A DNA stretch of 64,000 nucleotides. Source: Acetoanaerobium noterae. GTDB taxonomy: Bacteria > Bacillota > Clostridia > Peptostreptococcales > Filifactoraceae. The DNA lies in NCBI RefSeq assembly GCF_900168025.1, contig NZ_FUYN01000003.1, positions 1 to 64,000 of the forward strand, read 5' to 3'. Below are positions 29,749 to 36,727 of this stretch, piece by piece. A program made the position numbers and the translations under genes. The notes under the pieces were generated by a model. It was not told the origin of the DNA, did not search any database, and saw only the letters and a program-made list of their open reading frames with translations. Numbering within the stretch: the first letter of the stretch is position 1; each line of letters opens with the position of its first letter.

Positions 29749-30684
29749 CTATTTTACTATTCTTGTCCCTGTCTGACCTGCAATACCTGCTGATGCTTTT
29801 TCCAATGATGTAATAAGAGCTTTTCTGCCTTCTTTTGACTCAGCAAAGGATATAGCTGCTTTAACCTTTGGAAGCATTGAGCCAGGAGCGAAATGTCCTT
29901 CTTCAATATATTTTTCAGCTTCATTTATAGTTAAAGTTGAAAGCCACTGCTCGTTTTCTTTTCCAAAATTAATAGCAACTTGCTCTACTGCTGTAAGAAT
30001 GATTAGGTAATCTGCATCTAAAATTTCAGCAAGCTTTGCTGAAGCAAAATCCTTATCAATAACTGCAGGAATTCCGATTAATTTATTTCCTTCAGCATAA
30101 ACAGGAATTCCTCCTCCGCCAACAGCAATAACTACTTGATTGTTGTCAACTAGAGTCTTTATTGTTTCTTTTTCCGCTACATCTATAGGAAGTGGTGAAG
30201 CAACAACTCTTCTATAGCCTCTACCTGCATCCTCTTTCATTACAAAGCCTTTTTCTGTCATTAGCTTTTCTGCCTCTTCTTTAGAGTAAAAAGCTCCAAC
30301 AGGTTTAGTTGGGTTTTCAAATGCTGAATCATTTTTATCTACTATTACTTGAGTAACTACAGTAGCTACTGGGATTTGCATATCTCTTTCAAGTAGTTCT
30401 TCTCTAATCGCATTTTGAAGATGGTAGCCTATATAACCTTGGCTCATAGCTCCACACTCTGGAAATGGCATTTCTGGAGTAGCCGCAGATGATTTTGAAG
30501 CTACATCCATAGCAAGATTTATCATACCTACCTGTGGTCCGTTGCCATGGGCTATTATAACCTCATGACCATCAGCTATCAAATCCACGATTGGCTTTGC
30601 TGTATGTCTTACAGCTTGAATTTGCTCCTCAGGTGTATTCCCAAGGGCGTTTCCTCCTAGTGCAACAACAATTTTATCTTTCAT
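29749..30684 (-). CDS. arcC: Carbamate kinase
   Basis: Final step of arginine fermentation: carbamoyl phosphate plus ADP gives ATP, CO2 and ammonia. The amino-acid kinase fold shows VVALGGNALGNTPEEQ, AHGNGPQVGMINLA, EDAGRGYRRVVASPLP and VAVGGGGIPVY. The 311 residues are standard. It is third in arcABC, with a hairpin between it and arcB. Confidence 0.97.
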   Translation of the reverse strand: MKDKIVVALGGNALGNTPEEQIQAVRHTAKPIVDLIADGHEVIIAHGNGPQVGMINLAMDVASKSSAATPEMPFPECGAMSQGYIGYHLQNAIREELLERDMQIPVATVVTQVIVDKNDSAFENPTKPVGAFYSKEEAEKLMTEKGFVMKEDAGRGYRRVVASPLPIDVAEKETIKTLVDNNQVVIAVGGGGIPVYAEGNKLIGIPAVIDKDFASAKLAEILDADYLIILTAVEQVAINFGKENEQWLSTLTINEAEKYIEEGHFAPGSMLPKVKAAISFAESKEGRKALITSLEKASAGIAGQTGTRIVK

Positions 30685-30721
30685 TCATTTTCCTCCTAGT
30701 TTTATGCATAATTTAAGTCTA

Positions 30722-30750
30722 TAAAAGCAGGGAAAACTCCCCTGCTTTTA
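30722..30750. repeat. Hairpin between arcB and arcC
   Basis: TAAAAGCAGGG (30722-30732) pairs perfectly with CCCTGCTTTTA (30740-30750). A strong T-run follows only on the plus strand. On the minus (coding) strand it probably acts as an mRNA-stability or partial-termination element that lowers arcC relative to arcAB. Confidence 0.6.
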
Positions 30751-30774
30751 GTTTTTTTATTTAATCGATTAATC

Positions 30775-31773
30775 TTATAAGTTTCCTATAGTTGCAACCA
30801 TTACAGCTTTTATAGTATGCATTCTGTTTTCAGCCTCATCAAATACTTTTGAATGTCTGCTTCTGAAAACTTCATCAGTAACTTCCATAGACTCAAGTCC
30901 AAACTTCTCATAGATATCTTTACCTACTGTTGTGTTTAAATCATGGAAAGCTGGTAAGCAATGTAAGAATAGAACATCTGGGTTTTCTGTCTTCTTAATC
31001 ATATCCATGTTAACTTGGTAAGGCTTAAGCTGCTTGATTCTTTCTTCAAACATAGCCTCTTCACCCATAGAAACCCATACATCTGTATAAATAACATCTG
31101 CATTTTTTACATCATCTATATTTTCACTGAAGTTAATAGATGCGCCAGTTTCCTTAGCAACTTCTTTCATTTCAGCAACTAGCTCTTCTGCTGGCCATAA
31201 TTCTTTTGGTGCAAGACCCCAGAACTCCATACCCATTTTTGCTGCACCTATCATTAAAGAGTTACCCATGTTATTTCTTGCATCTCCAGCATAAACAAAT
31301 TTAACTTTGTTAAGTGGCTTAGCAACATGCTCTTTGATAGTTAAAAAGTCAGCTAAAATTTGAGTTGGGTGATAAAGGTCAGTAAGACCGTTCCATACTG
31401 GCACTCCTGCATTTGCTGCTAAAATTTCTACTGTCTCCTGCTTAAAGCCTCTAAACTCAATACCATCATAAAATCTTCCAAGTACCTTAGCTGTATCTTC
31501 GATTGATTCTTTTTTACCCATTTGACTATCGCCAGAACCTAAGAATGTAACATGACCACCTTCATCAAGTACTCCAACTTCAAATGCGCATCTAGTTCTT
31601 GTTGAGGTTTTTTCAAATAGTAAAACTACATTTTTCCCTTCAAGTAGATTTCCTTTAATGCCTGCTCTTTTTTTCGCTTTTAAATCAGCTGATAGATCTA
31701 AAAGATAGTTGATTTCTTCTGGTGTAAAATGCTTTAATGTTAAAAAACTTCTTCCTTTAAGACTTACTGGCAT
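30775..31773 (-). CDS. arcB: Ornithine carbamoyltransferase (catabolic)
   Basis: Splits citrulline with phosphate to ornithine and carbamoyl phosphate. The carbamoyl-phosphate site [15 protein letters not shown], the ornithine-loop HCLPAFHD and [14 protein letters not shown] are present. The 332 residues match catabolic ArcB. The catabolic role is inferred from its place between arcA and arcC. A GGAGGG Shine-Dalgarno precedes the ATG. Confidence 0.97.
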
Positions 31774-31843
31774 ATTGTATTCCCTCCAATTTTTAAATTA
31801 AAAATTATTATTATTCTATAGGCCAAGCCTAAGTTTAAGTGTA

Positions 31844-33076
31844 TTATAGATTTTCTCTGTATAAAGGCATAGACATGCAGCGTGGACCGCCTCTACCTCT
31901 TGAAAGCTCACTCGATGGCATTATATGAAGCTTTACTCCAGCTTCCTCAAGTAGCTTATTTGTTACATGATTTCTAGAATAAACAACTACCTCACCTGGA
32001 GCAATTGCAAGAGTATTCGATCCATCATTCCACTGCTCTCTAGCGGCATCAATCATATCTCCTCCACCACAACGGATTAAAGTAACCTTTTCAACTTCAA
32101 GATATTTTGCCAATACCTTATCTAGCTCCTGAGTTTCTTTTTGGATTTTTATACTGTTACCTTCTCCTCTGCTAATAGCATATACTGTAAGAGGTCCTTC
32201 GATTTCAGGATGTATTGTAAATTTGTCAAAATCAATCATTGTGAAAACTGTATCTAGATGCATAAACGCTCTTTTATTAGGTATGTGGAAAGCTAAAACT
32301 GTTTTAAAGCTCTCATCCTTATCAAAAATACGTTTCGCCATTTTTTCGATAGAAGCAGCATCTGTTCTTTCAGAAATACCTATAGCTAGTACTTCTTTAT
32401 TAAGTACAAGCTCATCTCCGCCTTCTAATGAAGTGGTGTCATCCCTGTCAAACCATCTAGGAATGTTACTATCTTTAAAGCGTGGATGATTTTCAAAGAT
32501 ATACTTTGCAAATAAGGTTTCTCTATTTCTTGTAACAGTGCGCATGTGATTCAACGAAATTCCAGAGCCAATAGTAGCAAAAGGATCTCGCGTGAAATAT
32601 AGATTAGGCATAGGGTCTGCCACGAAAGGATAGCCTGAGTCTGCCATGTCAGCAAGAGAAGTTGCATTGTAATTTGGAAGTTCTGATTTTCTGATTCCCT
32701 CCATCATTTTGTCAACTAATTCTCTATTTGTTTTACAATTTAATAAGAGTTCTTTTACTAGCTGTTTTTTCTTCTCACCAAGAATTCCAGCTTCTTTAAT
32801 ATATTCCTCTACAAATCTTTCTTTTACACTAGCATCTTCGATTGCCTCTGCTGCTAAATCCTCCAAATAGAGTACCTCTACTCCATTGTCAGATAAAATT
32901 TTGGCAAAAGCATCATGCTCTTGTCTGGCTACTTCCAAGTAAGGAATATCATCAAACAACAGTCTATCCATCAGATCTGGTGTAAGATTCTCAATTTCTT
33001 TTCCTGGTCTGTGAAGCAGTACAGTCTTTAGTTTACCAATTTCTGAATAAACATTAAGAACCTTCTTGTCTTCCAT
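31844..33076 (-). CDS. arcA: Arginine deiminase
   Basis: Converts arginine to citrulline and ammonia. The N-terminal [36 protein letters not shown] and [13 protein letters not shown] motifs and the catalytic cysteine in [10 protein letters not shown] are all present. The frame is open to 33139, but the family start [14 protein letters not shown] begins at ATG 33076. GAGGTG lies six bases before it, giving 410 residues, the usual length. First gene of arcABC, read from a strong promoter about 170 bases upstream. Confidence 0.97.
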
Positions 33077-33154
33077 TACAGTCACCTCAATTTTATTTTT
33101 TTCCATAACTTTGAAAATTTTGTTATACCATGCTACCATATTTTAAATAATAGG

Positions 33155-33385: not shown

Positions 33386-34228
33386 TTATATTTTCAATAC
33401 ATTATTTTGCCCTGTTGATTTTTTTACTGGGATTTGAATCTCAGATATGTATTCTTCTTCAGAATCAGAAAAATCATAATCCACAATGTTTTTTTCTATT
33501 GAGTTTCCTGTAATCTCATAGCCATTGAGCTCTATCCATGAAATTAAAATTTCATAATGCCTATGCATATCTCTATAGGGTCCCAAAAAACTAATGCAAG
33601 CATACTCTCCTTTAGGCAAGGTTATTATTTCCGGTTTTAAAATATCTTCAGTAAATGGAAGCTCAATAAAATAACTAAACTTATTAAAAATACCTTTTTC
33701 CAAATCTTCCTTTTCCAGAGAGGTGTATATCTGTCCATCAACAAGCCATGAACTCATAGCTATATACTGTTTGTTGTCGCTAAACATTTTCTTAGTTTCA
33801 TAATGATCATCCTTTTGCTTTATTCTAAGAAAAATACCACTTCTAGCTGGCATCATCTTTAGTCTCACTATGTCTAAATCTTTTTGAGCTGACTCAATTA
33901 TCTGTATTTTTGTCTTAATCTTATTTTCTAAAGCACTCCAGTGTTGAACCTTTGCATGGGCCTCCTTCTCTTTTTTCTTTAAAAGAACCAAAAGATTTTC
34001 AGTATTTTTATTATGGAGATAATTTTTTATATCCTCAAGCGATATATCTAGACTTTTAAAGAAAAGTATCCTGCTAAGCTTAAAAAAATCCCTAACATCA
34101 TAATACCTATAGGAATTATCTTTATTGCACTGAGGCTTAAGTAATCCTTTTTTGTCATAATGTCTAATAGTATCCGTGCTTATATTGAAAAGTTTGGCCA
34201 ATTCTCCAATCATGAACTTTTCTTTCAT
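33386..34228 (-). CDS. MerR-family activator with GyrI-like ligand-binding domain
   Basis: 280 residues. The MerR winged helix is at residues 5-75 (MIGELAKLFNISTDTIRHYDKKGLL, YRYYDVRDFFKLSRIL), followed by a coiled-coil dimerisation helix (about 78-118). A C-terminal GyrI/effector-binding domain like that of BmrR (about 125-275) senses hydrophobic or cationic compounds in known cases. It is divergent from an MFS transporter whose promoter carries a canonical MerR dyad. The regulator very probably activates that gene, but the inducer is unknown. Confidence 0.9.
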   Translation of the reverse strand: MKEKFMIGELAKLFNISTDTIRHYDKKGLLKPQCNKDNSYRYYDVRDFFKLSRILFFKSLDISLEDIKNYLHNKNTENLLVLLKKKEKEAHAKVQHWSALENKIKTKIQIIESAQKDLDIVRLKMMPARSGIFLRIKQKDDHYETKKMFSDNKQYIAMSSWLVDGQIYTSLEKEDLEKGIFNKFSYFIELPFTEDILKPEIITLPKGEYACISFLGPYRDMHRHYEILISWIELNGYEITGNSIEKNIVDYDFSDSEEEYISEIQIPVKKSTGQNNVLKI

Positions 34229-34327
34229 AAATCTCTCCTTTACTTATGACTATATCTATTGTTTGGATTATTATACTTTAAATTCAGCTATAAAAAAACT
34301 CAATATACTTTTTTTGTAAAAAAATAT

Positions 34328-34358
34328 TTGACCTTTGAGTAACTCTAAAGTTTATAAT
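34328..34358 (+). promoter_or_regulatory. MerR-type promoter of the OFA transporter
   Basis: There is a -35 TTGACC (34328-34333), a 19-bp spacer and a -10 TATAAT (34353-34358). A 21-bp dyad fills the spacer: ACCTTTGAGT-A-ACTCTAAAGT (34331-34351), with 8 of 10 positions symmetric. An overlong 19-bp spacer spanned by an operator dyad is the hallmark of promoters activated by DNA untwisting by MerR-family proteins. Confidence 0.85.
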
Positions 34359-34399
34359 CAACTCACATTTATTTTTTGATATTATATGGAGGTCGTTTG

Positions 34400-35638
34400 A
34401 TGGAAAACAAAAGTTTGGCAAAACAGGCTTGGACAGTATTATTAGCTGGTCTTGGCGTAAATCTAACTATCGGCGTTTTATATTCTTGGAGCGTTATAAA
34501 AAAATCACTAGTTGCTGATTTGAATTGGTCAAACAGCGAAGCTTCACTTCCTTACACAGTTGCTATTTTAGTATGGGCTCTTACTCTTCTTGTTGCAGGA
34601 AAGCTTCAAGATAAATATGGTCCAAAGAAAATCGTTATACTTGGAACTATCTTTACAGCTCTAGGTCTTATTTTATCAAGTTTTACAACAAATCCTGCAA
34701 TAATAGTATTGTCATATGGAATAATAACTGGAGGTGGAATAGGCTTTGCTTACGCTTCAGTAACTCCTCCAGCGCTAAAATGGTTTCACCCAGCAAAAAA
34801 AGGTATGGTTACTGGAATAGTTGTAAGTGGTATGGGTCTTGCTTCTCTTTACATAGCTCCTATTACCACAGCTCTAATTTCATCGTTTGGCATCTCAAGA
34901 ACTTTTTTAATACTGGGTATTTTTATATTAATTGTTGGAACTGGAATAGCTCAGCTAATTAAAAATCCTCCTGAGGGTTATGTTCCTGAAGAACCAAAAA
35001 ATATGAAAAACTCAAACTCTCCTAAATCAAAACCAGTAGCTGATTTTGATTGGAGGGGTATAATTAAAACTAAAGAATTTTATTTTTTATGGATAATGTT
35101 TGCCCTGTCATCATCAGCTGGTCTAATGATAATAGGAAATCTAGCAGCCATTTCTTTAGAGCAGGCTTCATGGGATAAAGGATTCTTTTTAGTTGGATTG
35201 CTTGCTATATTCAATGCCCTAGGTCGTATAGGTGCAGGCCTTCTTTCTGATAAAATCGGTCGTATACGTACGCTTACTTTAGTTCTTGCTATACAGGGAA
35301 TAAATATGTTGTTATTTGCTAGTTATGTAAATCCAATCGGAATTACTATAGGAACTATGTTAGCAGGTATAGGCTATGGTTCACTACTCAGTCTTTTCCC
35401 ATCTCTTACTGCAGATTTTTATGGAGTAAAAAACTTTGGTGGAAATTATGGCGTTTTATATACAGCATGGGGTATAAGTGGAACCATCGGACCTATTATG
35501 GCAGCTGTCATAGTTGATAGCACAGGTTCATACAATCTTGCATACCTTATATCTGCTGGACTACTTATATTTGCAATAGGAATATCCCTAATAACAAAAA
35601 ATCCTCAAGATTCAAAAAGAATAAATCAAGCAGCTTAA
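34400..35638 (+). CDS. MFS transporter, OFA (oxalate/formate antiporter) family
   Basis: About 412 residues with 12 predicted membrane helices in two halves separated by a hydrophilic loop (EEPKNMKNSNSPKSKP, about residues 195-215). The MFS motif AGKLQDKYGPKK follows helix 2, and a second copy GLLSDKIGRIRT is in the C-terminal half. NLTIGVLYSWSVIKK at the start is typical of the OFA family. I start at ATG 34400 behind GGAGG; an upstream ATG at 34376 lacks one. The substrate, possibly a monocarboxylate, is not determinable. Confidence 0.88.
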   Translation: MENKSLAKQAWTVLLAGLGVNLTIGVLYSWSVIKKSLVADLNWSNSEASLPYTVAILVWALTLLVAGKLQDKYGPKKIVILGTIFTALGLILSSFTTNPAIIVLSYGIITGGGIGFAYASVTPPALKWFHPAKKGMVTGIVVSGMGLASLYIAPITTALISSFGISRTFLILGIFILIVGTGIAQLIKNPPEGYVPEEPKNMKNSNSPKSKPVADFDWRGIIKTKEFYFLWIMFALSSSAGLMIIGNLAAISLEQASWDKGFFLVGLLAIFNALGRIGAGLLSDKIGRIRTLTLVLAIQGINMLLFASYVNPIGITIGTMLAGIGYGSLLSLFPSLTADFYGVKNFGGNYGVLYTAWGISGTIGPIMAAVIVDSTGSYNLAYLISAGLLIFAIGISLITKNPQDSKRINQAA

Positions 35639-35664: not shown

Positions 35665-35694
35665 TTGTTTTCATTCACAGTTTAAAGGTATAAT
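35665..35694 (+). promoter_or_regulatory. Promoter of the PsuG-like gene
   Basis: There is a -35 TTGTTT (35665-35670), an 18-bp spacer and a perfect -10 TATAAT (35689-35694), about 54 bases before the start codon. Confidence 0.55.
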
Positions 35695-35747
35695 AACTAA
35701 TATGCCGCTAACTTAAATGAAAATTGACATGTTAAGGGGGTTTTTTT

Positions 35748-36668
35748 ATGAATAAATACCTTTTTATAGAAAAAAACTTAGAAAAGATAATCCGCTCAAA
35801 TAAGCCTGTAGTGGGTTTAGAATTAAATAGTATATCAAAGGTTGTTCCTTATCCGCAGAGCTTAAATTTAGCAATGGAGATTGAAGATATAATTAAAAGC
35901 AGTGGAGCCTACCCTGCAACTTTAGGAATTATTGATGGAAAGCTAATCGCAGGTCTTACTTCATCTGAAATAGCATATCTACTCAGCATGGATCACGCGC
36001 CTAAAATATCAACAAGAGATATTTCCTATTTTATATCTCAAAAGCTTTCTGGGACACTTACTTCAGCTGCAGCTCTTTTTATTTCCAAGCTTGCCGGAAT
36101 AAGAGTTCTGTCAACAGCTGCTATTGGTGGAGTTCATAGAGGTGCAGTTGAAAACTTTGATATATCATCCGATTTACAAGAGCTCTCATCTACAAATGTA
36201 GCTGTAGTTTGCTCTGGAGTAAACTACATTTTCGATATCCCTTTGACTTTGGAATATCTAAAAACATACGGAGTACCCGTTGTGGGATATACTACAGATA
36301 TTTTTCCAGCTTTTTATGTATTAGACGACCGCCTCAAGGTGGAGTATAGGATAGACCACCCTAAAGAAATTGCTAGCTTGATTGATACAAAATGGAACCT
36401 GGGAATAAAAGGTGGAGTAATAGTTGCTAATCCTGTTCCTCCTGCATGCGTTATTGATAGAGAAACTATGGAAAGCTATGTGAAAATGGCGCTAGAAAAA
36501 GCAAGGCAGTCACATATAGATAGAAAAGACTTTACTTCGTATATGATAGAGGAAATAGACAGTTACACAAAAGGTAAAACTATGCAGTATATAGGTGAAA
36601 TTCTAAAAAACAACGCTAGACTCTCATGCATTATAAGTGACGAATTGACAAATTTATACAAGGAATAA
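35748..36668 (+). CDS. PsuG-family protein (pseudouridine-5'-phosphate glycosidase fold) lacking the Schiff-base lysine
   Basis: 306 residues, collinear with PsuG (YeiN/IndA) throughout: YPATLGIIDGKLIAGLTSSE, KISTRDIS, IGGVHRGAVENFDISSDLQEL and VGYTTDIFPAF. Known PsuG enzymes break the C-C bond of pseudouridine phosphate using a lysine (Lys166 in E. coli, in AGAKSIL). Here that segment reads SGVNYIF, with Asn159. The ESTIISHGMP segment is ELNSISKVVP, so the catalytic Glu is kept (Glu25) but neighbouring Ser, Thr and His are lost. The Lys93 (Lys86 here) and Asp149 (Asp142) equivalents remain. No pseudouridine kinase is adjacent. It may be inactive, or have a different activity. Confidence 0.8.
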   Translation: MNKYLFIEKNLEKIIRSNKPVVGLELNSISKVVPYPQSLNLAMEIEDIIKSSGAYPATLGIIDGKLIAGLTSSEIAYLLSMDHAPKISTRDISYFISQKLSGTLTSAAALFISKLAGIRVLSTAAIGGVHRGAVENFDISSDLQELSSTNVAVVCSGVNYIFDIPLTLEYLKTYGVPVVGYTTDIFPAFYVLDDRLKVEYRIDHPKEIASLIDTKWNLGIKGGVIVANPVPPACVIDRETMESYVKMALEKARQSHIDRKDFTSYMIEEIDSYTKGKTMQYIGEILKNNARLSCIISDELTNLYKE

Positions 36669-36675
36669 TTTAAAA

Positions 36676-36727
36676 AAACTCCATCAAGTCCATTTAGCTT
36701 TTTTAGCTAAGGTCTTAGATGGAGTTT
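36676..36727. terminator. Shared bidirectional terminator (psuG-like / pfp)
   Basis: AAACTCCATC (36676-36685) pairs with GATGGAGTTT (36718-36727). An inner TTAGCT/AGCTAA stem caps it. A-runs on the left side and T-rich flanks serve both converging genes. Confidence 0.75.

Follow-up and report, generated by a model that had tools for sequence, protein, structure and literature searches.

The window, meaning the whole stretch of 64,000 nucleotides of Acetoanaerobium noterae DNA that was analysed, carries a paralogue of the pseudouridine-5'-phosphate glycosidase PsuG, which we call the N-type and in which the Schiff-base lysine, a loop of the active site and the residue that contacts uracil have all been replaced. 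Judged on the residues that define that enzyme, the N-type is not a PsuG, and we give a probability of about one-half to the reading that it has left pseudouridine-5'-phosphate cleavage, with the phosphate and metal half of the site kept and the C1 and uracil half rebuilt, and that it acts on another phospho-pentose compound. All other members of the family that we sampled keep the lysine, including some whose loops are altered or whose product, as in AlnA, is another one, and a natural, conserved member without either the lysine or the uracil contact marks a point at which a C-glycosidase may have given rise to a new function. Homology-based annotation would probably label genes of the N-type kind as PsuG, which would mislead predictions of pathways.

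The gene starts with an ATG codon and encodes a protein of one PF04227 domain:
35748..36668, + strand: PsuG-family (PF04227) paralogue, the N-type, 306 amino acids (ORF call, HMM and structure searches)
The PF04227 match spans residues 12–297 with an E-value of 1.2e-101 and 340 bits, against a curated cut-off of 25.2, so that membership of the PsuG fold family is full-length and above the cut-off; NCBIfam holds no model that matches either the N-type or the canonical PsuG. The full-length alignment with PsuG claimed in the original prediction is thereby borne out, the closest solved relatives being E. coli PsuG (4gij, E-value 2.2e-66), Arabidopsis PsiMP glycosylase, AlnA and TM1464. A structural model predicted from 35 aligned sequences (mean pLDDT 92, pTM 0.91) superposes on 4gij and 4gik with a TM score of 0.95, an rmsd of 1.4–1.6 Å and a Z-score of 46, whereas structures of other families than PsuG/AlnA/TM1464 reached a Z-score of only about 5. 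Over the four structures of E. coli PsuG, or YeiN (4gij, 4gik, 4gil and 4gim), the likeness extends to the whole fold (TM 0.94–0.95), with 38% sequence identity.

The changes are concentrated in three places of the active site, where N-type residue numbers are lower than those of E. coli PsuG by 6 in the N-terminal loop and by 7 from Lys86 onward:
36213..36233, + strand: codons of SGVNYIF (residues 156–162), in which Asn159 (36222–36224) replaces the Schiff-base Lys166 (alignment)
35820..35843, + strand: codons of ELNSISKV (Glu25 to Val32), replacing the loop ESTIISHG (Glu31 to Gly38 in E. coli), with His37 becoming Lys31 (alignment)
36591..36593, + strand: codon of Ile282, replacing Asn289, the contact to uracil O2 in PsuG (alignment; role of Asn289 from PMC7722734)
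In YeiN, Lys166 is the lysine that forms the iminium with C1 of ribose, Glu31 is its helper, and Asn289 makes the sole crystallographic hydrogen bond to uracil (PMC7722734). The replacement of Lys166 by Asn159, as originally proposed, holds up: HMMER aligned CSGVNYIFD of the N-type with CAGAKSILD, the distance of 17 residues from Asp142 to Asn159 is the same as that from Asp149 to Lys166 in E. coli, and the K166A mutant structure 4gim has its alanine in the Asn159 column, which fixes that column as the one of the Schiff-base lysine. The loop is indeed rewritten, although the claim that only its glutamate survives went too far, because Ile29 and Ser30 are retained along with Glu25, and it is the positions of Ser32-Thr33-Ile34 and of His37-Gly38 that are replaced. 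The loss was rightly described as selective, but the exchange of the uracil ligand Asn289 for Ile282 had been overlooked.

Against these losses stand the residues that are kept. Glu25, Lys86, Thr123, His130, Asp138, Ser140, Asp142 and Asn289 of the N-type are the equivalents of Glu31, Lys93, Thr130, His137, Asp145, Ser147, Asp149 and Asn296 in E. coli, and the earlier statement that other ligands such as Lys86 and Asp142 remain is thus correct. Lys93, Asp145, Ser147 and Asp149 of the E. coli enzyme presumably bind phosphate and metal. Of the features that identify a pseudouridine-5'-phosphate glycosidase, the N-type therefore has the glutamate and the whole of this four-residue set, and has neither the lysine nor the uracil-binding asparagine.

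How unusual this combination is was judged on 149 distinct PsuG-family genes, a sample taken for the most part from the best-scoring genes of the order and class and from those present there in several copies, rather than from all life. The Lys166 column holds lysine in 147 of the 149 and asparagine only in the window gene and its orthologue in A. pronyense DSM 27512, which is 71% identical and has the same asparagine, loop and isoleucine; because the two exceptions are one orthologous pair, Asn159 is not a chance substitution. At Asn289 the sample has Asn in 144, Ser in two, Gln in one and Ile in two, the last being the N-type pair, which is also the sole holder of lysine in the His37 column. 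Lys93, His137, Ser147, Asp149 and Asn296 do not vary in any sequence aligned there, the N-type pair included. The suggested search for a clade with Asn and the ELNS loop is thus answered by a clade of two, the window gene and that of A. pronyense.

With Lys166 absent, the known iminium route is closed to the N-type, and with Asn289 and the old loop gone the protein is not expected to bind uracil in the manner of PsuG. We propose that the protein would hold a phosphorylated, pentose-like ligand by its metal and phosphate end, that its C1 or aglycone end would fit something other than uracil, and that no covalent iminium would form. The preferred course would be a non-covalent reaction, assisted by acid/base and metal catalysis through Glu25 and Lys86, on another phosphoribosyl or pentose-phosphate compound, candidates being an isomerisation or the hydrolytic cleavage of some other 5'-phosphoribosyl bond. 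In its fullest form, which we hold more tentatively than the loss of pseudouridine-5'-phosphate cleavage, the proposal is that an enzyme with the PsuG fold converts a phospho-pentose substrate without covalent Schiff-base catalysis and evolved in one genus beside an unchanged PsuG; to our knowledge, such chemistry is not known for this fold.

Binding of a phospho-pentose is plausible because Lys-to-Ala mutants of known family members carry ligand in the crystal, PsiMP in 4gim and both PSU and R5P in 8k06. Loss of the lysine alone thus leaves binding intact, which would equally suit a ligand-sensing or regulatory pseudoenzyme, one that takes up ribose 5-phosphate or a related compound in the retained phosphate and metal half of the site and serves to signal or buffer without converting it. 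At the sequence level, a role confined to binding or regulation would look much like a new enzyme, and no pathway gene adjoins the N-type, as a sensor would allow. However, a pure binder has no need of the acid/base pair Glu25 and Lys86, whose retention would favour catalysis, and the single PF04227 domain comes with no DNA-binding or other partner domain; we regard a sensor as possible but doubtful. Common to the two readings is another phospho-pentose compound, either as a substrate or as a sensed ligand, and this much is most likely.

The known relatives differ from the N-type in instructive ways. AlnA, the prealnumycin C-glycosynthase (4ex8, 4ex9), shares the fold family, an altered loop and an altered Asn289 column (Gly), but retains the lysine (GGAKSILD); it is a precedent in which the aglycone site was changed and the lysine kept, whereas the N-type changed both and so does not have the make-up of an AlnA-type C-glycosynthase. 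The Arabidopsis PsiMP glycosylase (8k05–8k07) resembles the N-type in fold and in the position of the loop, but has the lysine (K185), and its lysine-less forms are engineered mutants.

The example of AlnA, with Gly at the Asn289 column, shows that aglycone specificity can change within the fold, and it lends some force to the idea that the Schiff-base lysine has not been lost but moved. Lys31, in the same loop as Glu25, or Lys287, which stands in place of Tyr294, could replace Lys166 in forming the iminium, and the aglycone might then be a different one, as it is for AlnA, which uses its own lysine; Lys31 and Lys287 are both present in the two N-types and in none of the 33 canonical sequences aligned. 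No such relocation is seen in any other of the 149 sampled members, and we consider this explanation, which counts against a non-covalent enzyme, unlikely.

The history of the gene was examined through its conservation. Between the window gene and that of A. pronyense, dN is 0.21 with dS saturated, compared with a dN of 0.26 for the canonical psuG genes of these genomes, and the differences by codon position number 82/36/181; between the window strain and A. noterae DSL2, a third strain, 12 codon differences are synonymous and one is non-synonymous. Of 96 positions invariant in the 33 canonical sequences, 60 are retained in the N-types and 23 have an identical new residue in both. The active-site segments 20–38, 86–92, 120–148, 153–178 and 282–294, which were picked around the known site after the alignment had been seen, are identical between the species at 87 of 94 positions (93%), compared with 131 of 212 (62%) outside them. 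In a tree of 56 rows the stem leading to the N-type pair measures 2.1 changes per site and the two tips 0.33 and 0.19, which points to a phase of fast change followed by constraint.

The loss of catalytic residues beside a redundant intact copy is what might be seen in a psuG copy decaying toward a pseudogene. Decay is nevertheless barely credible here, in view of an open reading frame that is intact in three genomes, a dN far below dS and lower than that of the canonical gene, the 12:1 ratio between strains and the conservation of the rebuilt site. On this evidence the N-type is an old PsuG paralogue under purifying selection and apparently functional; together with the model at TM 0.95, it upholds the original view of a selective change in an intact fold. 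A recent duplication from the canonical PsuG of the same genome was also considered and tentatively set aside, the tree that forces the two together being 23 log units worse, with a borderline p-AU of 0.044 in a test that the long branches make unsafe.

Canonical psuG was found elsewhere in every genome searched, namely the window genome, A. pronyense and DSL2 (97.4% DNA identity in the last), which leaves the N-type paralogue free to change. The canonical PsuG of the window genome (G000:C1:575530-576438, L032:7525-8439) is 45% identical to the N-type and of near-equal length and, like it, has one domain, but it has the canonical residue at every site. A PfkB-type kinase gene adjoins canonical psuG in both the window genome and A. 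pronyense; in the former it encodes an HTH-PfkB protein with a winged-helix domain, whose best NCBIfam matches, sugar kinase and pseudouridine kinase, are both below cut-off. The presence of both genes in each genome would permit the N-type to be a non-catalytic subunit that regulates PsuG in mixed oligomers with it. Partners of that kind would be expected to be co-inherited, yet between the two species the canonical PsuGs share only 62% identity and belong to separate clades, whereas the N-types are 71% identical and form one, and the two genes are unlinked on the chromosome, so that we find mixed oligomers improbable. The different clades suggest instead that canonical psuG was exchanged or replaced, and that the N-type was probably inherited.

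The signals around the gene and its neighbours are as follows:
35687..35694, + strand: GGTATAAT, putative −10 box of a promoter of the N-type itself (also present upstream of its A. pronyense orthologue)
35734..35740, + strand: ribosome-binding site AAGGGGG (Shine-Dalgarno), 7 nt before the ATG (sequence)
36676..36727, + strand: terminator-like hairpin after the stop codon (−24.8 kcal/mol, z −5.3)
29749..33139, − strand: arcA-arcB-arcC, arginine deiminase pathway (named by reading the ORF sequences)
Of the promoter and terminator with which the gene had been credited, the hairpin is well supported; generic promoter-like matches in the region are no more frequent than chance would give (three found, 6.5 expected), and it is the sharing with A. 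pronyense that makes GGTATAAT a probable −10 box. Upstream, at 33386–35638, lie a MerR regulator with a GyrI-like domain and an L-lactate-type MFS transporter, and a convergent phosphofructokinase gene lies downstream. A pseudouridine kinase beside or fused to PsuG is usual but not obligatory. None adjoins the N-type, whose immediate neighbours are the MFS transporter and the phosphofructokinase, and the earlier remark on the missing kinase stands in this respect, with the qualification that a canonical psuG with its kinase gene lies elsewhere in the genome. Unlike E. coli PsuG, then, the N-type has the residues Asn159 and Ile282, the loop ELNSISKV and no adjacent kinase gene, and the absence of an adjoining pathway partner also counts against a new enzyme.

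The neighbour that the N-type has in common in both species is arcA-arcB-arcC, the others being different. In A. pronyense the gene and arcA are immediate neighbours in divergent orientation, and the MFS transporter, 64% identical, lies on another contig; in the window and DSL2 arcA and the N-type are separated by the MerR and MFS genes, with the arc genes 2.6 kb away in the window. Since both species also have veg, ispE, GntR and ddl in this order beyond arcC, the link with arc may be plain inheritance of gene order, and a functional link with the arginine deiminase genes, although considered, was not adopted.

A search of 394 genomes of the order and 391 of the class found no additional close relative of the N-type, and none was found in viral contigs; a single-protein scan of 84,980 species genomes with short exact peptide patterns matched only A. 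pronyense. Searched in 398 genomes of the phylum, a degenerate DNA pattern for the motif C[A/S]G[A/V]NxI[L/F]D matched the window gene and one site in a further genome (G920), which tblastn showed not to be a PsuG. By these searches, the N-type is restricted to the genus Acetoanaerobium.

Other divergent members of the family were met in the course of the sampling. One genome (G623) has, beside its canonical copy, a paralogue (L066:88-993) with Glu31 changed to Lys, the loop KSTLVSQG and Lys166 retained. Three genomes (G016, G038 and G055; L054, L056 and L058) hold a separate divergent clade with a stem of 1.2 changes per site, the loop ESTILSHNLP and, around the lysine, VKPTQ[D/E]; a canonical copy is also present in two of the three. 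A very divergent protein (L064:104-1000, G707; 40% identity, branch of three changes per site) carries ETGGTFEG as its loop, has Gln in the column of Asn289 and retains the lysine. Among plasmid records, compared by identity alone, only A. noterae DSL2 matched the N-type, at 99.7%, all other matches being below 60%. That record (NZ_CP154629.1; L077, L078) is a circle of 2.63 Mb labelled plasmid pTPELB2, carries chromosomal loci and is probably a misnamed chromosome.
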